48,740 nucleotides of DNA, taken from a virus. The stretch is from positions 1 to 48,740 of the IMG/VR virus record IMGVR_UViG_3300020000_000024. One strand, written 5' to 3'. Position 1 is the first letter of the stretch. Each line of letters opens with the position of its first letter. Below the pieces are notes generated by a model. It had not been told where the DNA came from and ran no database searches. It saw only the letters and a program-made list of their open reading frames with translations. Both the position numbers and the translations under genes were made by a program. Below are positions 4,627-25,431 of the stretch, in pieces.

Positions 4627-5874
4627 TTAATCTATTGGAACAATATCTGTCACTTCATTGCTCTTTTGTTTAACTACTGGACCAATTTTAATATTACGAA
4701 TCTGTGAATCTTTCAGTACATGATTATGAAGTTTCAAATAGAGTAGTACAGCATCCCTATTAAGTGGTCCTTTCATACCTTTAATTGTAACCATTCCATC
4801 CTCTGCTGAATTAAGAAATCCTTTTAAAACCTTTTTCATCTGATTTTTACTAGATGCATAGTTTTCACATAGCAATGTAGCATAATCAGCATATTTAGTT
4901 CTATATTGATTTAAAGGAAGAATTGTAACAGTATTCCTTAATTCCCCTTTAGAAATCATATGACAAGTTGCAATTCCACATTCATTATAGGTTTTCTTAC
5001 CATTGATAACACTATCATCAATCTCTTTTCCCCAATAATAATCTCCAGAAATATAGAAATCTTCTTCAGGATTAATCATTAATCTCAATAATCTAGTTGT
5101 ATATGATTCTTTCTTTTCAAAATAAATCTCTCCAATAGTCCATTGATTTACTGGTATTCCAAAAGCATTTCTAGCTGAAAATTCACTTGTTGAATCTGTT
5201 GCAAATAGTTCAGCCATTGTTTTAAGATTCTTATTCTTTGATTCAGTAGTTTTACCTCCTACATCTTCAATTTTAACATCAAGATAACATTTATTAGAGA
5301 ATTTATATCCTTCATCTTCAATAAAATCACCTATAGTGATTATATCATGATCAGGGAACATAAATGCTAATTTATTTGTACTTAAAGTAATATCAAAAAT
5401 TGAACAGAATAAAGTTTTATCCCTCTTCAATAAATTAATAAACTCTGGTATACACATAAACTGTTTAATAAAATGATAAGTATCTGAATAATCAGATCCT
5501 GCATTGGAATATTTAAAAAATGTTCCATTATGAACCATCAATACATCTGCAGATGTACCTTCTAATTCAAGTATCTCATTTTGTTTATCTGATAATACAA
5601 ATGGATGACAATTATAATCTGTAAGTTTACCTTTATTTCCTCTTCTTGAATGAATAATTAATTCATCATTAATGGTTAAATTAAGTTTTTTTACATCCTC
5701 TAATAAAATATCAATATCTGTATATCCCTTTTTGAAACTTACTAATTCTACACCATCATATTTGGCACAGAAACCATAACCATCTTTATTGTTTACAGCT
5801 CCTGTTTTAATAGCATTAATAAATTTATCTGAATATTTATCCGTACCTTTACCTGCTATACCTATGAGACACAT
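4627..5874 (-). CDS. Class II glutamine amidotransferase-like protein (Ntn hydrolase), 415 aa
   Basis: Starts at ATG 5874, giving Met-Cys (MCLIGIAGKG) so that Cys2 becomes the N-terminal nucleophile after Met removal; a longer reading from a TTG at 5907 would bury the nucleophile. Further GATase II signatures are HSRRGNKG (near 75-82), HNGTF (near 115-119) and SDTYHF (near 130-135). The C-terminal ~200 residues have no recognised domain. It should release ammonia from glutamine (or act on a gamma-glutamyl amide) and pass it to a partner. It overlaps the amidoligase gene by 13 nt and is the first of two GATase II genes in this cassette. Confidence 0.85.
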   Translation of the reverse strand: MCLIGIAGKGTDKYSDKFINAIKTGAVNNKDGYGFCAKYDGVELVSFKKGYTDIDILLEDVKKLNLTINDELIIHSRRGNKGKLTDYNCHPFVLSDKQNEILELEGTSADVLMVHNGTFFKYSNAGSDYSDTYHFIKQFMCIPEFINLLKRDKTLFCSIFDITLSTNKLAFMFPDHDIITIGDFIEDEGYKFSNKCYLDVKIEDVGGKTTESKNKNLKTMAELFATDSTSEFSARNAFGIPVNQWTIGEIYFEKKESYTTRLLRLMINPEEDFYISGDYYWGKEIDDSVINGKKTYNECGIATCHMISKGELRNTVTILPLNQYRTKYADYATLLCENYASSKNQMKKVLKGFLNSAEDGMVTIKGMKGPLNRDAVLLYLKLHNHVLKDSQIRNIKIGPVVKQKSNEVTDIVPID

Positions 5875-7367
5875 ATTAATTCTTTTATTGATTTCTTTTC
5901 TCCACAACCCTCTTTGTATTCTTTTCTTTCTTCTTTAAGTCCAGCAGTTGTATTACCAGAATTAAATTTAGCCTTTCTCTCTTCAATATAACCACAAAGA
6001 ACATGTCCTGTTTTAGGATAAGCTGCCATGATAATATCAGTAAGAGTAAGATTTTCAGTAAGAATTCTTTCTTTGTAATTTTCAACAAAGTGAACAAAAG
6101 CCATACAAAGTTTAATCCAATTGTAGATTTTAACAAAATTACTAGAACCTGGATGATTTCTGAATTCTAATGTATAAGATCCATTTCCCCTAATATTAAA
6201 TGCTGCTGGAATAAGATTTAACCAACAATATCTTGGAGTGGAATGATCATATTGACACTTTGGACCCATTGGATGTTGAGCCTTTCTATTCACTTCTTTA
6301 CCTTTTTGAATTTGATAATGAGATAACCATTCATAAATACTCATGAAATAATCATCTAATTCAAGTTCTCTTTCTCTATATTCTTTAGAAAAAGCAGTTT
6401 TAGTGAATTTAGTTCTAATTGATCTACAATATTCATTACCTTTTCTAGTTGGAGGCATTATAGATGTAATCTCATGCTCAAGTTTATTACCTAAAATATA
6501 TGCTAAAGTAATAAATTCTTTAGAGGCATCGAAGCCACCTACATGCACATGAATTCCACAAAACTCATCTATAGTTCCTCTTTTAGCAAGTTCAATACAC
6601 ATATCCTGTAAATGATTCATTCCTGTATCACCTGTAAGTACTCCAGTAACAATCTCTGGACCACCTTGTTTTGCATTTAATGAACCATCTCTCATACATT
6701 TCATATTGTACTTATGAGATAAATACTCAGGTATATACAATCTGGAGAATTCAAGTTCAACTCCAAAAGTATATTTTAATCCTTCAGTAGATAGATATGT
6801 TCTGCTTTTCCATCCACCATTATATCCATCTAAATCACAATCATTATCAAATTTCCTAAAATCTTTATAATTATTATTGAATAAATCTGGAGAGAAGAAT
6901 TGCCCATTTACAAAACTTTCGATCATACCTGCATTAATAAATACTTCTGGATTTGCTCCATAAATACCTCCTAATTTTGCATGTTGTCCTATAGGACATT
7001 TTCTAGGATTTCTTGTATAACCAACTTTATTCTTATCAATATCTACAAATACTTTTACACAATTGTCTTTGAAATCAAATTCATTGGTTACAACATCTGT
7101 TATAATTCTAGGATCATCCTTCCTTACTCTCACACCATGAATTACCATTGTAGTTCCATCATCTTTTAAAAGTTCTTCTTCTTGTTTAGCTTTTTGTTTT
7201 TTAGGTATAGGAGGATTCCACATAGGAAGATCATCTGGTAATCCTATAGGATCTATGGGATCATTTCCAACATTCCATCCTGGTACAGCATTATTACCAG
7301 GATGTACTATAGGATTTCCTTCAGCATTTACCCAGACCCATTCTCCATTTACTTCCTTAACTGGCAT
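5862..7367 (-). CDS. Amidoligase (COOH-NH2 ligase of the glutamine-synthetase-like fold), 501 aa
   Basis: The central/C-terminal part carries amidoligase signatures: YTFGVELEFSR (about 199-209), RDGSL (226-230), GPEIV (236-240), HVHVGG (273-278) and EFRNHPGSSN (about 400-410), the conserved Glu/His metal and ATP ligands of this superfamily. The N-terminal ~190 residues include Trp/Pro-rich sequence (EWVWVNAEGNPIVHPG) with no known domain. Amidoligases form amide bonds between a carboxylate and an amine using ATP. It is flanked by two class II amidotransferases with overlapping ends, strongly implying a joint pathway. Family call firm; substrate unknown. Confidence 0.82.
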   Translation of the reverse strand: MPVKEVNGEWVWVNAEGNPIVHPGNNAVPGWNVGNDPIDPIGLPDDLPMWNPPIPKKQKAKQEEELLKDDGTTMVIHGVRVRKDDPRIITDVVTNEFDFKDNCVKVFVDIDKNKVGYTRNPRKCPIGQHAKLGGIYGANPEVFINAGMIESFVNGQFFSPDLFNNNYKDFRKFDNDCDLDGYNGGWKSRTYLSTEGLKYTFGVELEFSRLYIPEYLSHKYNMKCMRDGSLNAKQGGPEIVTGVLTGDTGMNHLQDMCIELAKRGTIDEFCGIHVHVGGFDASKEFITLAYILGNKLEHEITSIMPPTRKGNEYCRSIRTKFTKTAFSKEYRERELELDDYFMSIYEWLSHYQIQKGKEVNRKAQHPMGPKCQYDHSTPRYCWLNLIPAAFNIRGNGSYTLEFRNHPGSSNFVKIYNWIKLCMAFVHFVENYKERILTENLTLTDIIMAAYPKTGHVLCGYIEERKAKFNSGNTTAGLKEERKEYKEGCGEKKSIKELICVS

Positions 7368-8688
7368 GTTCCTCTTGTTTTATTGTTTCAAAATAACTAT
7401 CATCAACTAATGCTTCAAGACTTGCAATTTCTCCATTAATATTCTCACCATGAGCATTCTTTTCCTTGAGTTTTTCAAGCAACTCATTCATTTTATCCAG
7501 AACTTCATTTACTTTCTCTTTCATAAGTCTTTCTTCTTTTTCTTCTTTAGATTCTTTTTTGAATTTTTTTGCATAATCAGATAACTCAAGCATTGTTAAT
7601 TTTCTAATAGCACTATAAGGAACTGTTCCTGTAGTACCATTTTTCATAAGAGTTACTTCAGCTCTTTCATCTGCTAAAATATCAGTAACAAGTAATATTG
7701 CACCTTTAGATGCAAATTTCTTTCCTTTATCTCCTTTATTTGTATAAAATAAATCATGCATTACCATTACATAATCATTTTCACAAATTTCAAAGTCCGT
7801 GAAATCTATTCCATATTTTGTAATATGTTGTCTCTTATCATTACTATCAAGTACAATGACTGTATAATCATTTATATTTGAATAATCAACTGCCAGATAC
7901 CATTTACCATCTAAGATATTATAAGGTTCATTTACGCTATTTCTAACACTAATACCTGCTCTTACCCATCTATTAACTAAATCAAATGGTTCAATAGATT
8001 CTCTATCTACATTAGTGAATTTCTTGACTACATTATGATAACTTCTTTTTAACTTACGTTTAGTAAATTTACCATCTGTAATAGTATAGAGATGTCCTGT
8101 ATCAAATTGATCAATCTTCTTACAATCAATAACTTCTAATGATTCTTTAATGGAAGATATATACATATTACCATCCAAGTATCCATAATACAATGGTCTT
8201 TCATAGTTTCTATATACATATAATGTATTTGGTTTCTTAACATTTGTCCAAATAGTTGCTATTGCACCATTAACATCTTCTAAGAAATCAGGTTCATCAA
8301 ATTTATTCACTGCATGACAGAGAAGTTCACTATCTACATTAAATTGATTCCATTTTAAACCTACTTTTTCCATTAAAGGATAAGTATATCGTAATGTTCC
8401 ATTATGAACTAATACAGTATCATTTACTTTAAATGGATGAGCATTTTCTTTAATAATAGTTCCAACTGTAGCAGCTCTTGCATGTCCTATAAAAACATGA
8501 TCTTCTGAAAATACATTGTATTTATTCAGAAAATCTACCATTGAAATATTATCTTTAATAATCCCTTTAGAAGGAGAATAGATCCCTGCGGAATCTTTTC
8601 CCCTTTCTAAGGCGTTATATATCATCAATAATTTTAATAATTTTTGATCTGGTGCTATCACACCTGAGTACCCCACAATTCCGCACAT
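7357..8688 (-). CDS. Class II glutamine amidotransferase (GFAT/PurF-type N-terminal domain), 443 aa
   Basis: MCGIVGYSG gives Cys2 as nucleophile; GHARAATVG (Arg71), VHNGTL (Asn96-Gly97) and VDSELL (Asp119) complete the glutamine site. Residues 1-210 match the glutaminase domain of GlmS/PurF/AsnB enzymes, but the expected SIS or synthetase domain is absent. Instead there is an unrecognised region and a Lys/Glu-rich, probably coiled-coil, segment near 370-430. It probably supplies ammonia to a separate ligase, most likely the neighbouring amidoligases. It overlaps the amidoligase gene by 11 nt and begins 1 nt after the type-2 ligase gene. Confidence 0.88.
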   Translation of the reverse strand: MCGIVGYSGVIAPDQKLLKLLMIYNALERGKDSAGIYSPSKGIIKDNISMVDFLNKYNVFSEDHVFIGHARAATVGTIIKENAHPFKVNDTVLVHNGTLRYTYPLMEKVGLKWNQFNVDSELLCHAVNKFDEPDFLEDVNGAIATIWTNVKKPNTLYVYRNYERPLYYGYLDGNMYISSIKESLEVIDCKKIDQFDTGHLYTITDGKFTKRKLKRSYHNVVKKFTNVDRESIEPFDLVNRWVRAGISVRNSVNEPYNILDGKWYLAVDYSNINDYTVIVLDSNDKRQHITKYGIDFTDFEICENDYVMVMHDLFYTNKGDKGKKFASKGAILLVTDILADERAEVTLMKNGTTGTVPYSAIRKLTMLELSDYAKKFKKESKEEKEERLMKEKVNEVLDKMNELLEKLKEKNAHGENINGEIASLEALVDDSYFETIKQEEHAS

Positions 8689-8689
8689 A

Positions 8690-9502
8690 TTATACTTTAA
8701 TTTCCTTTTTAACTTCTGTTTCTAATTGATACTTATCAGCAAGAACTCTTGCTAAATCAAGATTATTCGTATTAATTGCTTCTACAATATTCTTTTGATC
8801 ATGATCCACAAAAGCACCAGAGTTGATAAATTCCAATGCTGCTTTAATATTTCTAAATAACCAATTTACTGTATCCTGATCCTGAATTACAAAGTTACCT
8901 AAAACCCTATACTCAACACCATATTGTTTAAATCTGAAACAACCAGCTTTACCATACATTTTCCTACGCTCTGTATCTTTATCTATAAATAGACTTGGAA
9001 TAGCAAGGAATAAATCAAGTACTTTTACAATTTCCTCAGATACTTGATCTGTAGGGTTTTTATATCCAATGTGAATATGACATCCAGCAGTTCTTAAATT
9101 ACTATTAGCATAATCAGCAGGTTCATTTACACTCTTTGTCCACACATTAAAATCTGGTGAACACCCTGCTTCTCTTGCTTGTTCATTATCAAAATACTTT
9201 TCATTTACATATCCAGATGATTGAATTGATACTTTAATATTCTTATCTTTAAGAAAATTATCAGTATAATCAATACAATATCTTACATTTTCATAAAACT
9301 TCTCTGGTTGTTCTAAAGAAACAGGAGGAAATGTATATTCAGCCAGAACATTATCTGTTTGAATTCCACAATCATTACCAATATCATGTGGTTCTCTCTT
9401 ATTACCCTCTATTAAACCAATAGAAGATACAATTTCTTTATCATCTTTAAGAAATACTTCAGGATCAGATCCTATTTTTACTTTTTCAAGATTAATTTTC
9501 AT
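8690..9502 (-). CDS. COOH-NH2 ligase type 2 (phiEco32-type amidoligase), 270 aa
   Basis: Conserved features of the phage COOH-NH2 ligase type 2 family: KIGSDPEVFLKD (9-20), an acidic EYTFPP segment near 55, CHIHIGYKNP (about 140-149) and EYRVLGNF near 197-204. These supply the acidic and histidine ATP/metal ligands of a glutamine-synthetase-like fold. The family was described in phage phiEco32 together with GATase and ATP-grasp genes. The product is not known; modification of peptidoglycan peptides, of a protein side chain, or synthesis of a small peptide have been proposed. It lies 5 nt from the GGCT-GATase I fusion gene. Confidence 0.83.
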   Translation of the reverse strand: MKINLEKVKIGSDPEVFLKDDKEIVSSIGLIEGNKREPHDIGNDCGIQTDNVLAEYTFPPVSLEQPEKFYENVRYCIDYTDNFLKDKNIKVSIQSSGYVNEKYFDNEQAREAGCSPDFNVWTKSVNEPADYANSNLRTAGCHIHIGYKNPTDQVSEEIVKVLDLFLAIPSLFIDKDTERRKMYGKAGCFRFKQYGVEYRVLGNFVIQDQDTVNWLFRNIKAALEFINSGAFVDHDQKNIVEAINTNNLDLARVLADKYQLETEVKKEIKV

Positions 9503-9507
9503 TTGTT

Positions 9508-10569
9508 TTAATTTTCGATTACTACTTCAGAATTTTGTGCAATTTGTTTGTTACTTCTTTCATAAACTGTATCCAATAGTTTACGCATACATTTAATTGT
9601 AAAGCTATTATTAGACAGATACTCAGGATGCATTTGGATTGCAAGGCATTTAGTTTTTGGATAATAAGCTATTTCAACATCACAAAGAGGATTCATATCT
9701 TCATTATCTCCTCCTAAGTGCATTTTACTCCTATCAGGATTTGATGCAATGATTTGATATTCATCTTGAGGAAGATTAAATGGATATTGCATTTGATGAT
9801 GTGTACTTGAAGCATCAATTTTCTGTCCTTTCTTTACAAGATCTTCAATATCTTCATGCAATTCAATTGAATGACTTCCAGCATGTTGCATATGCTGCAC
9901 TAATTTACCACCATTCATAACACAAAGAAACTGCGAACCTCTGCAGATTCCAAGTATTTGCTTACCTAAAGATAGAGCTTTTTTATAAATTTCAATTTCT
10001 CTACTATCTCGTGCAATATTTGAACTGGTATGATAATGTTCTTTCTCTCCATATAAACTTGGATCAACATCCTCTCCACCAGTAAATAATACAAGATCTG
10101 CATCTTCAATATTTTTTACAATTTGACCTTCCATCCATCTTGCATATCCAGTTTGAGAATCTGCTATAAATATTTTCCTTTTTGCTACTTTATCTTTTTC
10201 CATATCTCTGTTTAACCAATCATTTGTTTCAATTTTTACTCCACCTCTTGCTTCAATATCACCTTTTTTCATTAACCAAATAATAACATTTCGATTAACA
10301 CCATTTATTTTATGTGAAAATGACCAACTATAATATCCAGCATTCATTTCCATTTCATCAATATCAATAAAATCCTCATCTGAAACAGATAAGAAATCTC
10401 CTGTTGCAGGAAGATTATTACTATTTGTAAAATCTGCTACAGGATATGGTCCAAGATCAAATAATTGAATTCCATATAATATTGCTGTAGCTTCATGTTG
10501 TAATGATTTAAATTTATTAAAGTTTGGTTCTCCTGGTCTTAATGTACCATATGCAAATATGTATTTCAT
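9508..10569 (-). CDS. Gamma-glutamylcyclotransferase-like / class I glutamine amidotransferase-like fusion, 353 aa
   Basis: Residues 1-115 are a GGCT/AIG2-like domain (FAYGTLRPGE at 5-14; acidic DIDEMEMNAGYY near 69-80 fits its catalytic region). Residues 130-330 are a class I GATase / gamma-glutamyl hydrolase-like domain (peptidase C26): LFTGGEDVDPSLYG, the nucleophile elbow GICRGSQ with Cys209, and MHPEY with His314 and Glu316. Both domains act on gamma-glutamyl bonds, so the fusion probably edits or recycles gamma-glutamyl amides made by the ligases around it. The next gene upstream overlaps its ATG by 4 nt. I know of the domains as neighbours in phage clusters; whether this exact fusion has been reported I cannot check. 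Confidence 0.85.
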   Translation of the reverse strand: MKYIFAYGTLRPGEPNFNKFKSLQHEATAILYGIQLFDLGPYPVADFTNSNNLPATGDFLSVSDEDFIDIDEMEMNAGYYSWSFSHKINGVNRNVIIWLMKKGDIEARGGVKIETNDWLNRDMEKDKVAKRKIFIADSQTGYARWMEGQIVKNIEDADLVLFTGGEDVDPSLYGEKEHYHTSSNIARDSREIEIYKKALSLGKQILGICRGSQFLCVMNGGKLVQHMQHAGSHSIELHEDIEDLVKKGQKIDASSTHHQMQYPFNLPQDEYQIIASNPDRSKMHLGGDNEDMNPLCDVEIAYYPKTKCLAIQMHPEYLSNNSFTIKCMRKLLDTVYERSNKQIAQNSEVVIEN

Positions 10570-11246
10570 TTTGTTGCTTTTTTTATTATTTTTTTGTAAT
10601 CTTTTGTTTTTATTAATTCCTGTATTTCTGAAAGTAAAACTCCTGATATACTTTCATTACTAAACGTATATTCAATATTAGTACTTCCTGTATATGAAGT
10701 TTTATCTTTAGATAATATACTTTTAAATTGATCTAATGTATGTAGATAATTAATATGACGCTGATAAATGGTATGATTTGAATTATAATATTCTATTATC
10801 CAATGAGCCATTTGAAATGCATAAATAGGTTCAATATCATAAGTATCAATTAATTCAAATATCAATTTTGGTAAACTATCAATCTTATCCTCTAATACAT
10901 ATCTAATTGCCTGTAGTGTACAATTTAAAAGAAGTTTATTTTGTTTCTTCTGACAAAATACAAGTATAGAATAGCAAGTACGCTCATCAGCTTTTTTATC
11001 TTTGACTCTTCTACAATATAATCCAAAAGAATTTATAAGCCTAATCCATCTATCTACTTCTTTTTTTGAATAATCAATTAGATCTTTTGGAATAAGAACT
11101 CTAATTACAGATTTGCTATTAATATATTCTTTTGAAGAGTTATAAGTGATATGAGAATAACAAGATGTACAATAATTTGTATCATATTCTTTTATCTTCT
11201 TCCTATCACTTATAACTTCACTCCAACTATTCGTTGTCTTAGACAT
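10566..11246 (-). CDS. Unknown protein inside the amide-bond cassette, 226 aa
   Basis: ATG overlaps by 1 nt with the ATP-grasp stop and its TGA overlaps the start of the fusion gene, so it is embedded in the cassette. It has an N-terminal YCTSCYSH segment (possible half of a metal site), many Tyr/Lys residues, and a helical C-terminal tail (SEIQELIKTKDYKKIIKKATK). Its middle (EPIYAFQMAHWIIEYYN) looks helical. No family recognised. Position suggests it is the acceptor, carrier or an unrecognised enzyme of the pathway, but nothing in the sequence proves this. Confidence 0.72.
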   Translation of the reverse strand: MSKTTNSWSEVISDRKKIKEYDTNYCTSCYSHITYNSSKEYINSKSVIRVLIPKDLIDYSKKEVDRWIRLINSFGLYCRRVKDKKADERTCYSILVFCQKKQNKLLLNCTLQAIRYVLEDKIDSLPKLIFELIDTYDIEPIYAFQMAHWIIEYYNSNHTIYQRHINYLHTLDQFKSILSKDKTSYTGSTNIEYTFSNESISGVLLSEIQELIKTKDYKKIIKKATK

Positions 11247-11977
11247 TATTTATACTTATTCTTTAGAATTTTAGGAATTACATTAAGATACTCATTATAA
11301 GTATTTTTCAATAATTCTGGGTTAGTATTAACTTCATGAATAGTAAAGATGTGTTGTTTACCTTCTGAATTATATCCTACATCAAATGCACCTAAATCAA
11401 GTTTTAGGATTTTCATTGCTTTTAAACACTCAGCTTGCATTTCCTTCCACAACCTTGGTTTAACAAAGTCACGTACATTTGTATGATTCTTTGTATTAAT
11501 GATAATATCATTCTTATTTTCTTCTCTCTTAATTTTCTTAACTGAAAAGAAAACTTCATTTTGTGTACAATGTAACCTGTATTCAGAAGTACTTTTGAAC
11601 AAAGGTTCAATATAATATTGATTATGCAATACTTTTTTAAATACTTTCAACTCATTTGCATCCTCAACTACATAAACACCCGCTCCACCACTACCTACAG
11701 CATGTTTAATTACACATGGATATTTTTGTGGTTCATTGAAATATTCAAGAGTTTTAATATCATTCTTATTAAATAACTCTTTCATTTTAATCTTATTAAT
11801 ACAATTTTTTACTGCTTCTGCACTATTGATTTCCAGAGGATAATCTTCATATTTCTTTTCACCACCTAAGCGAACTACAACATTCTTTTTGAATCCTTGT
11901 ACTTCATCATTTTTTTCTAAATCTGTAGCTAACTTTTTAGCACGTTCTTGATACGTTGCAATGTGTACTTTTACCAT
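11246..11977 (-). CDS. ATP-grasp ligase (RimK-like), 243 aa
   Basis: N-terminal subdomain followed by CVIKHAVGSGGAGVYVVED (about 89-107; ATP-binding Lys and Gly-rich loop), a linker with YIEPLFKSTSEYRLHC, and a C-terminal metal site AFDVGYN...IHEVNTNPE (catalytic E-x-N near 213-217). ATP-grasp enzymes activate a carboxylate as acylphosphate and join it to an amine or thiol. It is short compared with free-standing RimK (about 300 aa), typical of phage versions. It begins the cassette on its promoter-proximal side; the 226-aa unknown gene follows with a 1-nt overlap. Confidence 0.85.
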   Translation of the reverse strand: MVKVHIATYQERAKKLATDLEKNDEVQGFKKNVVVRLGGEKKYEDYPLEINSAEAVKNCINKIKMKELFNKNDIKTLEYFNEPQKYPCVIKHAVGSGGAGVYVVEDANELKVFKKVLHNQYYIEPLFKSTSEYRLHCTQNEVFFSVKKIKREENKNDIIINTKNHTNVRDFVKPRLWKEMQAECLKAMKILKLDLGAFDVGYNSEGKQHIFTIHEVNTNPELLKNTYNEYLNVIPKILKNKYK

Positions 11978-16476: not shown

Positions 16477-16636
16477 CTACATTATTTAAAAAAGTTTTAA
16501 TTTCATCTAATCTCTGTTTACTTGGAGTTCCTCCTCTTTCTTCTAATTCAACTAATTGTTCCAAATATTTACAAGCCTTTAGTAAATTATAGTATGTTAA
16601 TAATTGTTTACCAGCTTCTTTTTCTACATCATTCAT
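16469..16636 (-). CDS. Small helical protein, 55 aa
   Basis: ATG 16636 to TAA 16469 (MNDVEKEAGKQLLTYYNLLK...). It overlaps its upstream neighbour by 4 nt (ATGA) and its downstream neighbour by 8 nt. Predicted to be two helices (LLTYYNLLKACKYLEQLVEL; SKQRLDEIKTFLNN). Unknown function. Confidence 0.65.
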   Translation of the reverse strand: MNDVEKEAGKQLLTYYNLLKACKYLEQLVELEERGGTPSKQRLDEIKTFLNNVDE

Positions 16637-17154
16637 GTTGTTAAAAATTCTTGTGTTTCTTTTCCTTTAAATTCTAATAACTGTTTAGTATTTTTAATTG
16701 CACCTTTAGCAGGCATTACTGTATTACTATGATCACCCGTATAACCATTCATTCTACTACAGGCTAGTATATTAGCTAGCATGAGCTTCTCTAATGGTTC
16801 CTCCATAGTTTCATCTTTTTCAATAAATTCAAAAAATAAATCTATATCAAAATAAGCAGGTTCATTCCATAGATACCTAATAAAGTTTAATAATATTAAA
16901 GATTGATCATATGTACTTAGTAATTTTATTTTAATATATTCAACATCATTAACTATAACTAACTCACAAGGAGTTATCTTATTAATAAGATCAACTAAGA
17001 TAGGAATATATTTTTTGGTTCTTGATTCAGTAAATCTACTGATATAAATAGTTTCATTACTCCAATATCTCATTCCTGCCCAACAAGCATCATTAGGATT
17101 TGGTTGTATAACTCCATTTAACATTTTATAAAAATAACATCTATAACCTCTCAT
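16633..17154 (-). CDS. Hypothetical protein, 173 aa
   Basis: ATG start sharing one base with the helicase stop. Contains a Trp/Cys segment (NPNDACWAGMRYWSNETIYISRF, in part) and helical C-terminal half. No motif of a known family. Sits directly behind the helicase, so it may be a replication accessory protein; that is inference. Confidence 0.7.
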   Translation of the reverse strand: MRGYRCYFYKMLNGVIQPNPNDACWAGMRYWSNETIYISRFTESRTKKYIPILVDLINKITPCELVIVNDVEYIKIKLLSTYDQSLILLNFIRYLWNEPAYFDIDLFFEFIEKDETMEEPLEKLMLANILACSRMNGYTGDHSNTVMPAKGAIKNTKQLLEFKGKETQEFLTT

Positions 17155-18514: not shown

Positions 18515-19060
18515 TTAATATTTAAATTGATAACCATTCGCTTGTTTATATATTCCGCTTAATACTCTATGTATTGAAGAGGGATCTAGTTTTAAATATT
18601 TAGCTGCTTGTCTTATATAGTCAAATGAATATTGGTAATCACCATTTTCAAGATATACATCAATTTTTCTTGTTCTTGTAAATTTTATAGTACCATTTTT
18701 ATAACCTAATTTTAAAGTTTGTGAAACCTTTTTTCTACTTTCAGTAGAAAGAGTATTTCTTAATACTTCTTTAGTTAAATTATATTCTGGTTTTAGTATG
18801 TTAATCCAATATTGTTCTCTTTGTAATAGTTCTTCTTTTTCACACTCTTCTAATATAAAACAGGTAAAATTTTCAATTTTGTATTTATTTATAGCACTTC
18901 TTAAATAAATATTTTGATGTCTTCCTATTCTAAAATCAGATAAATGTTTATTTAATCTATTATAAATATTAATAGAACTTCCAATATAGATTTTTCTATT
19001 TTTTCTATTATAAATACAATAAATTCCAATTTTTTTCGAGTAATTTCGCGATATTTTCAT
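18515..19060 (-). CDS. GIY-YIG homing endonuclease, intron-encoded, 181 aa
   Basis: N-terminal GIY-YIG domain: KIGIYCIYNRKNRKIYIGSS (about 10-29) with GIY-to-YIG spacing, conserved Arg (YNRLNKH), and a catalytic Glu region (LLQREQYWINILKPEYN). The C-terminus has a NUMOD1-like DNA-binding repeat (VYLENGDYQYSFDYIRQAAKYL...SIHRVL). It would cleave intronless helicase alleles near the Walker A codons and so spread the intron. A TATATTTG box (19065-19072) lies 4 nt upstream and may drive it separately from the host gene. An in-frame TAA removes a second repeat (see 18284-18514). Confidence 0.92.
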   Translation of the reverse strand: MKISRNYSKKIGIYCIYNRKNRKIYIGSSINIYNRLNKHLSDFRIGRHQNIYLRSAINKYKIENFTCFILEECEKEELLQREQYWINILKPEYNLTKEVLRNTLSTESRKKVSQTLKLGYKNGTIKFTRTRKIDVYLENGDYQYSFDYIRQAAKYLKLDPSSIHRVLSGIYKQANGYQFKY

Positions 19061-22825: not shown

Positions 22826-24730
22826 TTATTTTTTCCAATATTTATCTATAGTAATATCTACTTCCATATTAACTTGTTTAACATATTTATTACCACAGAT
22901 TATCATAATTTCTTTCATTTCTTGTGCAAATTGTTGGGCTAAATCTTCTCTAACTTCAACATCAATTGCATCATGCACTGTACATATTAGAAAAGCAACT
23001 TCTTCTTTGTATTGATTATTATACTCTTGAATTAGTCTTCTTATTTCAATTAAAGCTTCTTTACAAATATCAGCTCCAGTTCCTTGAATAGGCTGATTTC
23101 CACCATTTCTTTCAGTCTCACCTTCAGCCATTAAAATAGTTCTCCAATTAACTTTAGAGTTTTCTATTTCATTTTTCTTTATTTGTGCTCTTAAATCTTG
23201 AGCTATTTGTATTTTAGGATACCATCTTCGTCTTAAAGATGGAGTAAAAGTAGTACTAAACATTTGTTGTTTAGCCTTTAATCCTTGTTGTTTTAACCAT
23301 TGATTTAAGTTAGGAAAAGCTTTTTCATATTCAACGAATAACTGATTAGATTCTTCTATTGATATATTTAAAGTATCAGCTAATTTACTTGGTCCCATTC
23401 CATATGGTTTTCCAAAGTTAATTGTTTTAGCTTTATTTCTTAAATCTTTATCTTCTTTTGTAATTTTCTTTTTAAACATCATAGAACCTGCATAACAATG
23501 AAGATCTTCCCCACTATTTAATACATCTATGAATCCTTTCTCATTACTAGCATCAGCCATTAATCTTAATTCTTGCCCAGAATAATCTGCTGATACCCAT
23601 AAGAATCCCTCTTTAGCTTCAAAAGCATTTCTAAATTTATTATCTCCTGGAATATTTTGCATATTAGGAGCATTATCATCCTTAGACCCAGATGAAACTC
23701 TACCAGTATTTAATACTTGCCAAAAGCTTGTATGTACTTTATTAGTAGTTTTATTTATATATTTTAGAAATTTTTCTCCATATGTACTTACTATTTTAGC
23801 AGTTTTTCTATATTCTTGAAGCTTCTCGAAGAATTTATGTTCTTTAGTTAATTTTTTTAATTCTCTATCATTAGTACTTTCTATATTATAGCCCAATATA
23901 GAAATTAACTTTTTCATTTGTAAAGGAGAACTAAAATTTATATCATAGATTCTTTCTTCATAATTAAATAGATTTAATATTCCTGTTGGTTTATAAACTT
24001 CAGACAATGTCTTATCTTCTTGTATTATTAAATCTAAATCTCTTTGAATTTCTAGAAGTTGTAATTCAGCTCTTAGGGCTGTATCTAACCATTTATCTCT
24101 ATTTAAATAAATTCCATTATACTCAATATCTGCTAATGCTTTAACAACATTATTTTCAATATTAAGACAGTATTCAAGATTATATTCTTTAATCTTTACT
24201 TCTTGTTTTTCCTTTATTAAATGTAAATATTTTACATCTAAAGCTGAATATTCAATTTGTTTATCTGTTAGTGGCTTATCTTCTATAGTTGTAAATTCAC
24301 TTCTTATTTCTTTATCTAAAGTAATATCTAAATACCTTTTCATTAGATTAATTAGTCCGTATCCATACTTTTCATACCCACAAAAAAGAATACATTCAGC
24401 TAACATAGTATCATAAATATTCTCTATAATAATATTAGAAGCTTTTAAAAATTTATAATCAAATTTAGCATTATGAAGAATAAAATTATTATTCTCTAGA
24501 AAAGTTTTTAATTTTTGAATATCTATATATCTAACATCAATTACAAATTGATTTTCAAAATCTCCAAATTGTACTAAAATTATCTTCTTAGAATGACAAT
24601 CTTTTCCTTGGGTTTCTGTATCAAGATTTATCCATTGATGATTTTTAAAATATTCAAACATAAAATCTAAAGAACAACTTTTCCATACTTCACTTTCTAG
24701 CAGCTTTTGTTGTCCTATATAATATATCAT
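22826..24730 (-). CDS. Family A DNA polymerase with 3'-5' exonuclease domain
   Basis: 634 aa from ATG 24730; a TTG at 24748 is a less likely start. Exo domain: NLDTETQG (Exo I), LHNAKFDYKFL (Exo II), YSALDVKYLH (Exo III, YxxxD). Polymerase domain: SADYSGQELRL (motif A), RNKAKTINFGKPYG (motif B, Lys and Tyr present) and CTVHDAIDVEV (motif C). The 5'-3' exonuclease domain of Pol I is absent and is supplied by the gene at 2820-3626. This is the replicative polymerase. Its ATG overlaps the stop of a GIY-YIG gene (ATGA), so the two are co-transcribed. Confidence 0.95.
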   Translation of the reverse strand: MIYYIGQQKLLESEVWKSCSLDFMFEYFKNHQWINLDTETQGKDCHSKKIILVQFGDFENQFVIDVRYIDIQKLKTFLENNNFILHNAKFDYKFLKASNIIIENIYDTMLAECILFCGYEKYGYGLINLMKRYLDITLDKEIRSEFTTIEDKPLTDKQIEYSALDVKYLHLIKEKQEVKIKEYNLEYCLNIENNVVKALADIEYNGIYLNRDKWLDTALRAELQLLEIQRDLDLIIQEDKTLSEVYKPTGILNLFNYEERIYDINFSSPLQMKKLISILGYNIESTNDRELKKLTKEHKFFEKLQEYRKTAKIVSTYGEKFLKYINKTTNKVHTSFWQVLNTGRVSSGSKDDNAPNMQNIPGDNKFRNAFEAKEGFLWVSADYSGQELRLMADASNEKGFIDVLNSGEDLHCYAGSMMFKKKITKEDKDLRNKAKTINFGKPYGMGPSKLADTLNISIEESNQLFVEYEKAFPNLNQWLKQQGLKAKQQMFSTTFTPSLRRRWYPKIQIAQDLRAQIKKNEIENSKVNWRTILMAEGETERNGGNQPIQGTGADICKEALIEIRRLIQEYNNQYKEEVAFLICTVHDAIDVEVREDLAQQFAQEMKEIMIICGNKYVKQVNMEVDITIDKYWKK

Positions 24731-25395
24731 ATTAATTTCTTTTTCCAAATATATCCGTACATAGATGGCTTTTCACCACTACATACTGCATATATATTAT
24801 GTTTCTTATAAGTAGGATTTTTTTTAATTATATCAATTAATCTAGTCCATACTTTTATTAACTTATTAGTTTCTTTATCATATTGATATATTTTATATTT
24901 TGTATGATTGTTAGAAACTTTTTCACTCATTCGTTTTTTCTTTTCAGGATTATCTTTCCAAAATTGTATTGTTCTTTGTGAAGTTTTTAATTTTTCTTCT
25001 GGTTTGTTCGCAAATCTTTTCTTTTGTGCTTCAGATAGTCTTTTTCTTGTTTCTTCAGATATTATATATTTATTTTCACTATCAATTCTTATATTATAGC
25101 CAATTTTTCTATTGTTGGCTTCTAATTTAGCAATCCAAGATAATTCTTTTTCATAAAGTTCTTCCTTTAGACAATATTCCAATACTGAATATTCAAAAGA
25201 AATTCTCTTATATTTGTGCCAAGCTCTAATTAGATGAATATTTTCATCTTTTGATCTTTTATTCAAACCATTAATATGTCTTCTAATTCTATCATATATA
25301 GTTGTAGATCTACCAATATAGATCTTGTTATTAACTAAATTTTTAATTTGATAGATTCCTGATTTTTTGTTGTCTCTTCTTCTATGTAATTTCAT
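24727..25395 (-). CDS. GIY-YIG homing endonuclease, free-standing, 222 aa
   Basis: ATG at 25395 (MKLHRRRDNKKSGIYQIKNL...); a longer reading from TTG 25431 would overlap the promoter at 25401-25431. GIY-YIG domain: SGIYQIKNLVNNKIYIGRS, Arg in YDRIRRH, Glu region LYEKELSWIAKLEANNR. The middle has NUMOD3-like helices (SEETRKRLSEAQKKRF; RMSEKVSNNHTKY) and the end a NUMOD1-like repeat (YQYDKETNKLIKVWTRLIDII...IYAVCSGEKP). No intron core is visible around it and the polymerase appears intact, so it is a free-standing homing gene placed just before polA. Confidence 0.9.
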   Translation of the reverse strand: MKLHRRRDNKKSGIYQIKNLVNNKIYIGRSTTIYDRIRRHINGLNKRSKDENIHLIRAWHKYKRISFEYSVLEYCLKEELYEKELSWIAKLEANNRKIGYNIRIDSENKYIISEETRKRLSEAQKKRFANKPEEKLKTSQRTIQFWKDNPEKKKRMSEKVSNNHTKYKIYQYDKETNKLIKVWTRLIDIIKKNPTYKKHNIYAVCSGEKPSMYGYIWKKKLI

Positions 25396-25400
25396 GGATA

Positions 25401-25431
25401 CAAAGATACAACATAAAAAGTCAAAAGTCAA
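25401..25431 (-). promoter_or_regulatory. Bacteroidetes-type promoter before the GIY-YIG/polymerase pair
   Basis: On the minus strand TTGAC (25431-25427), 18 nt, TATCTTTG (25408-25401), 5 nt before the ATG. The same boxes with the same 18-nt spacing and a shared ATGTTGTATCTTTG core occur at 35749-35779 on the plus strand. Confidence 0.7.

Follow-up and report, generated by a model that had tools for sequence, protein, structure and literature searches.

Amidoligase cassettes of the kind carried by phages phiEco32, RIO-1 and LUZ24 are predicted to make and edit amide bonds, and the primary predictions about them are reportedly those of Iyer et al. in 2009 and Hardies et al. in 2013. The gene set has been called a putative 'peptidoglycan modification cassette' and predicted to modify peptidoglycan (PMC5498523, PMC11945000), and a paper on a LUZ24-like phage repeats this idea and adds a weakening of the wall (PMC11945000). 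Mass spectrometry of a phage SU10 preparation detected an ATP-grasp protein, a GATase and a YtfP/GGCT-type protein (PMC4281155). Here we describe a seven-gene set that is almost certainly a cassette of the phiEco32/RIO-1 type, found in the IMG/VR virus record IMGVR_UViG_3300020000_000024, of which the whole stretch analysed (a viral contig of 48,740 bases) is called the window below. An earlier note, made from the letters of this DNA, had placed seven contiguous minus-strand genes at positions 4627-11977, and the coordinates of the open reading frames (ORFs) match. The cassette kind was known before; new here are the recurrence of a protein family that we call X, the fusion of GGCT with a class I GATase (GATase I), and a second class II GATase (GATase II).

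The seven ORFs are tightly packed, neighbours overlapping by up to 13 bp or standing at most 5 bp apart (Table 1), and their catalytic motifs are intact in sequence. The COOH-NH2 ligase keeps the motifs GSDPE, HIHIG and EYR and the catalytic columns D13/E15/H142/H144/E197/R199, while the invariant residues of the amidoligase in its family alignment are E204, E206, D227, E238, H273, E401 and R403. The first GATase II has its catalytic residues in place (C2, R71, H95-N96-G97 and D119). In the ATP-grasp protein the metal-site residues D199, E215 and N217 are invariant across the family alignment; the protein matches the NCBIfam rimK_fam model at 3e-8, under the cut-off of that model, and the top PDB matches of its family profile are the alpha-L-glutamate ligases 7qyr/7qys and cyanophycin synthase, with D-Ala-D-Ala ligases lower. 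The fused protein scores 49.6 bits against PF06094 (cut-off 22.8) in its GGCT domain and 72.6 bits against PF07722, Peptidase_C26 (cut-off 20.5), in its GATase I domain; YGTLR at residue 7 marks the former, GICRG at 207 and HPE at 314 the latter, and the nearest PDB sequences are 3fij (Lin1909) and 7d4r/7d50/7d53. Profiles and motifs thus uphold the enzyme identities that the earlier note had proposed, the second GATase II by motifs, its match to PF13230 being sub-threshold (14.1 bits, cut-off 23). Its class-II motifs are complete (C2, RRG at 77, HNG at 115 and SDT at 130), and the ATG at 5874 is taken as its natural start in preference to a TTG further upstream, at 5907. No relative of this protein was found in phages by tblastn or in IMG/VR by a single-sequence scan with six peptide patterns; a weak HMM (hidden Markov model) match in locus L068 (E 1e-5) is the sole one. 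That match aside, the second GATase II was seen in this window only, as was the GGCT-GATase I fusion.

The linkage of these genes is strong in related phages, and the set is met again in hundreds of phages unrelated to one another. With the active-site motifs also in place, neither of the two outcomes that the earlier note had named as refuting was observed. A tblastn search located the COOH-NH2 ligase in 311 phage records; for the GATase II the number was 333, and the two tallies of organisms were almost the same. A profile scan of IMG/VR with the ligase yielded 80 loci; single-sequence IMG/VR scans with the ligase and with the 226-aa protein returned no relatives, and the profile scan alone succeeded. 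Of these 80 loci, those of the named phages, three loci from genome contigs and the window itself, 50 have flanks of ≥6.5 kb to either side of the ligase and form the full-flank set, in which we counted genes on the same strand within ±6.5 kb. All family counts come from loci chosen for the COOH-NH2 ligase, whose presence is by construction, and were made with HMMs trained on the very loci counted (E ≤1e-3, or ≤0.01 for GGCT and X; the GGCT model was seeded with three sequences). On this basis GATase II stands near the ligase in 49/50 loci, the amidoligase in 47/50, ATP-grasp in 39/50, GATase I in 32/50 and GGCT in 26/50, with GATase I and/or GGCT in 47/50. When the set is made non-redundant at 80% ligase identity (n=42), the corresponding numbers are 41, 39, 31, 29 and 19, and 39 for GATase I and/or GGCT. 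Two layouts dominate: a crAss-type order of ATP-grasp, X, GATase I, ligase, GATase II and amidoligase, and a podophage-type order of a gene labelled Y, ligase, a 227-aa gene, amidoligase, GATase II, ATP-grasp and GGCT.

Table 1. Positions in the window of the seven cassette genes and of a probable further X-family gene.
Feature	Position	Strand	Evidence
Second GATase II (MCLIGI), an orphan addition of 415 aa	4627..5874	-	class-II motifs; PF13230 sub-threshold
Amidoligase_2 family ligase, 501 aa	5862..7367	-	PF12224 54.7 bits, cut-off 22; phrog_2443 E 8e-22
Class II GATase (MCGIVG), 443 aa, C-terminal half without assignment	7357..8688	-	PF13522 64.2 bits, cut-off 27; phrog_4736 E 1.6e-37
COOH-NH2 ligase type 2 (phiEco32 type), 270 aa	8690..9502	-	PF14395 47 bits, cut-off 25; phrog_3815 E 1.5e-71
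GGCT (residues ~1-125) fused to class I GATase, C26 gamma-glutamyl hydrolase type (~145-336)	9508..10569	-	PF06094, PF07722, PF00117
'Unknown' 226-aa protein, apparent divergent X-family member (C29, R115, H158)	10566..11246	-	iterative HMM, motifs, operon position, model
ATP-grasp ligase, RimK/glutamate-ligase-like, 243 aa	11246..11977	-	phrog_2599 E 6e-27; CPSase_L_D2 above cut-off
Further probable member of the X family (173 aa), in replication block, with ~4.7 kb between it and the ATP-grasp gene	16633..17154	-	X profile E 9e-4

The cassette very likely encodes a coherent amide-ligation pathway. In the working that we propose, the GATase II enzymes would free ammonia from glutamine, and the glutamate-ligase-like ATP-grasp protein, the COOH-NH2 ligase and the amidoligase would use ATP to link carboxylates with glutamyl or other amino groups. 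Trimming or recycling of gamma-glutamyl ends would fall to the GGCT domain and the gamma-glutamyl hydrolase-type GATase I domain, and the X-family protein, whose Cys, Arg and His are conserved, would be a usual partner of the set, whether as a further thiol enzyme, as a subunit that confers specificity or as a carrier. GGCT enzymes act on gamma-glutamyl ends, releasing gamma-glutamyl groups as 5-oxoproline; because of this chemistry, the nearness of the ATP-grasp protein to glutamate ligases and the hydrolase type of the GATase I, the set fits both the building and the trimming of glutamyl or amide linkages. The most likely single acceptor would be the cytoplasmic precursor of the peptidoglycan stem peptide, so that the wall of the infected cell would be altered.

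We thus favour a complete, apparently functional and probably early cassette that builds and trims glutamyl or amide linkages, with a wall precursor as the most likely single acceptor, and give this statement as a whole a probability of roughly 0.45. A cell-wall peptide as acceptor, taken for itself, is a tentative assignment, with the odds somewhat against it. Several observations weigh against the favoured statement. None of the cassette components is peptidoglycan-specific, and the genes around the cassette serve replication, not lysis. Neither the COOH-NH2 ligase family nor the amidoligase family has a solved relative detectable by sequence, so that substrates and acceptor cannot be read from the sequence. 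The X membership of the 226-aa protein combines a weak HMM score, motifs, operon position and a model that assumes homology. Finally, the comparison with phiEco32 and the caution about unproved chemistry in the earlier note were both right: the literature that we found holds prediction, and no experiment on any such cassette.

The trimming domains are also where a different product comes into view, a gamma-glutamyl peptide or amide that is soluble, such as a gamma-glutamylated polyamine, nucleotide or signal, made with no change to the wall. PF07722 places the GATase I domain with the gamma-glutamyl hydrolases, the GGCT family is known for its activity on gamma-glutamyl ends, and NCBIfam models for gamma-glutamyl-CDP-amidate hydrolase and gamma-glutamyl-GABA hydrolase give sub-threshold matches to the GATase I. 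These last matches fall far under their cut-offs, however, and no exporter or small-molecule gene is common to all the cassettes seen; we regard a soluble product as unlikely.

The X family bears on the favoured pathway through the gene between ATP-grasp and GATase I. In crAss-type loci this position is held by an unannotated protein of ~240-340 aa, X, in one to three copies. The family has 41 members in 32 loci and is present in 26/50 full-flank loci, and in L062 and L063 X forms the C-terminal half of a GATase I (two fusions). Across 32 aligned members one Cys, within C[FYW], is invariant, and an Arg and a His are near-invariant. Neither Pfam nor PHROG gave a match for the members tested, nor NCBIfam for the one member tested, and a comparison of X with PDB sequences was equally blank. 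The window's 226-aa protein sits in the operon slot that X holds elsewhere and retains all three residues; it enters the iterated X profile at a weak E of 9e-4, and hhalign gave a P of 0.007 for the pair. It appears, from these sequence features, to be a divergent member of a recurring and previously unannotated family. The earlier note had left this gene as an unknown, which holds in that there is no Pfam match above cut-off and no convincing PHROG or NCBIfam match, but it is no stray. The probable second member in the window (Table 1) has conserved ACW, IRY and DH motifs and all three residues, but lies outside the X operon slot.

AlphaFold modelled the X protein of locus L006 with a predicted local distance difference test (pLDDT) score of 88.9 and a predicted template modelling (pTM) score of 0.88, and the 226-aa protein with 76.0 and 0.77. 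The order of structural elements in the latter resembles the L006 model, a result that is consistent with membership and not independent of it, as the input alignment included X members and so assumed homology. Foldseek found no neighbour of either model in PDB (best E 0.11 and 0.065; query-normalised TM score ≤0.25), and the top names returned, acyl-homoserine lactone synthase and I-OnuI-type endonucleases, were rejected as noise. In a viral library the X model matched proteins of cr108_1 and ctelJ1 (E 3e-9 to 1e-6) and, more weakly, proteins of Cronobacter phage GAP52 (E 0.007), Pseudomonas phage PaP4 (0.035) and Aeromonas phages LAh_6 (0.037) and 4_4572 (0.09). For GAP52, PaP4 and 4_4572, the ~4.5 kb upstream of the COOH-NH2 ligase include genes for proteins of exactly matching length, mapped by organism and length. 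In this upstream region GAP52, PaP4, 4_4572 and Bas86 together encode ten uncharacterised proteins of 260-405 aa, a set that leaves out PaP4's annotated lipoprotein. All ten carry C[FYW] at residues 20-32, against a background of 10.5% among 1,074 other ORF products (≥170 aa, cassette enzymes included) in which the motif was accepted anywhere in the first 75 residues. An hhalign comparison of X with this upstream podophage family was not significant (P 0.04), although the Cys and Arg align. Pseudomonas, Cronobacter, Aeromonas and Escherichia phages therefore have probable X relatives upstream of the ligase, and an X-like partner is probably general across cassettes, the basis outside the crAss-type branch being motif, position and weak structural matches.

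X is also the most divergent component, with a median pairwise identity of 19% against 33-48% for the enzymes in 18 matched loci, and its divergence, its occurrence in one to three copies and its fusion to GATase I would suit an acceptor that is a host or phage protein, to which (iso)peptide-linked amino acids are added and from which they are trimmed, with X as target, adaptor or carrier. The ATP-grasp protein, nearest to RimK and the alpha-glutamate ligases, points the same way. Yet a target is lacking so far, fast evolution fits a specificity subunit equally well, and the role of the conserved Cys is a predicted one, so that we consider a protein acceptor doubtful. A narrower form, in which X proteins themselves are the acceptor or carrier of a phage conjugation system that puts a glutamyl- or amide-linked appendage on, or through, a fast-evolving thiol-bearing protein, seems improbable.

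Its gene content marks the window as a fragment from a crAss-like (gut-type) phage. PF23898 identifies the product of its final gene, truncated by the contig end, as a Crassvirales major capsid protein (140 bits; cut-off 27), and a Toprim-type primase and a DNA polymerase of family A are encoded as well. The G+C content is 24-33% in 2-kb steps, and the GC skew switches sign at ~34 kb, where the direction of transcription turns. The gene order runs from the primase through one 279-aa gene to the cassette and then to a gene matching a RusA-like PHROG family, and because of this placement with replication genes the cassette is probably expressed early in infection.

This setting raises the thought that the cassette decorates a base and shields phage DNA, since such cassettes are located among primase, exonuclease and UDG genes. 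The Gordonclarkvirinae, which resist restriction-modification (PMC11990801) and carry the set, leave a small opening in this direction; the COOH-NH2 ligase is present in Bas88 and Bas92-94. The authors of the BASEL study point instead to a dCTP deaminase and a nucleotidyltransferase, and DNA of cassette phages is readily cut: that of cassette-bearing tf by RsaI, HpaI, EcoRV, SmaI and HaeIII (PMC3517423), that of LUZ24-like pyophages by EcoRI, HindIII, Sau3A and AluI (PMC3634792), and that of cassette-bearing U17 by 11/16 enzymes (PMC11945000). We hold modification of DNA or nucleotides to be very improbable. Given these many restriction enzymes, bulk hypermodification of DNA by the cassette as such is unlikely, the digests concerning LUZ24-like carriers, which are other phages than that of the window. 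The published digests already shorten the list of possible products; among the three targets that the earlier note had left open (peptidoglycan peptides, protein or DNA, a small peptide), DNA is weakened as a bulk modification.

Further observations concern the surroundings of the cassette here and elsewhere. Close downstream of it in the window, a C5 cytosine DNA methyltransferase (PF00145; 2002-2823, minus strand) looks intact, and two minus-strand proteins (18515-19060 and 24727-25431) read, by sequence inspection, as GIY-YIG-type homing endonucleases. PADLOC models run against the window detected no known anti-phage defence system, the two marginal matches (E ~0.004; Cas8b and Cas1b) being judged noise. 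The podophage-type loci L021-L061 have, in 36 cases, an unannotated 227-aa protein (phrog_11055/4877; for example L057:10789-11472) encoded between ligase and amidoligase, mostly where GATase I is missing; it was considered as an X member and rejected, with no detectable relationship. The cyanophage Lbo-JY46, a Leptolyngbya phage (L004, 6757-10966), has the gene set beside pncB and prsA, and these NAD/phosphoribosyl pyrophosphate (PRPP)-type genes directly precede the cassette; in Aeromonas phage 4_4572 (L098) a PRPP synthetase gene immediately follows it. The GATase II of phi14:2 as annotated (L003, 12805-14721) has an N-terminal extension and no Met ahead of the catalytic Cys, and its start may be misannotated. 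In L087, from a bin labelled 'archaeon', the COOH-NH2 ligase has IMPDH and a gene resembling adenylosuccinate synthetase as neighbours; GATase II and amidoligase lie ~5 kb off. A cassette in an archaeal host without peptidoglycan would count against the wall idea; this interpretation was rejected, as the sigma-70 gene of the locus makes a bacterial phage in an archaeal bin most likely.

The key ligase of the cassette occurs in more than 300 sequenced phage records and in many crAss-like and environmental phages, and with X recognised as a component that recurs and conserves its Cys, Arg and His, there is a missing cassette gene to test. Among systems of known function, the RimK and cyanophycin synthase ATP-grasp glutamate ligases are the nearest solved relatives of the window's ATP-grasp family profile; unlike RimK, the window protein is short (243 aa) and well under the NCBIfam rimK cut-off. 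The MurT/GatD pair follows an analogous logic, in which a glutaminase and an ATP-dependent ligase amidate glutamate, but the analogy is functional only and the cassette has no MurT-type ligase. As in the phiEco32/RIO-1/LUZ24 type, genes for COOH-NH2 ligase, amidoligase, GATase II, ATP-grasp and GGCT are contiguous and stand among early or replication genes. Its order (ATP-grasp, X, GGCT-GATase I, COOH-NH2 ligase, GATase II, amidoligase) sets the window apart from that type, as do the presence of a GATase I, joined to GGCT in one protein, and that of a second GATase II; unlike most podophage-type loci, the window is without the 227-aa gene. Closer in arrangement are the crAss-like cr108_1 and Cellulophaga phage phi14:2, where the set likewise lies downstream of the primase and the order of COOH-NH2 ligase, GATase II and amidoligase is identical. 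In both, the cassette is followed by UDG, RusA-like/endonuclease and exonuclease genes; the window has a RusA-like gene after the cassette, whereas the adjoining UDG is a feature of the other two. Neither has a fusion of GGCT with GATase I or a second GATase II. With the HMMs used here phi14:2 gave no X or GATase I, while cr108_1 has a GATase I, like the window, and two X proteins, to which the apparent X members of the window would correspond.

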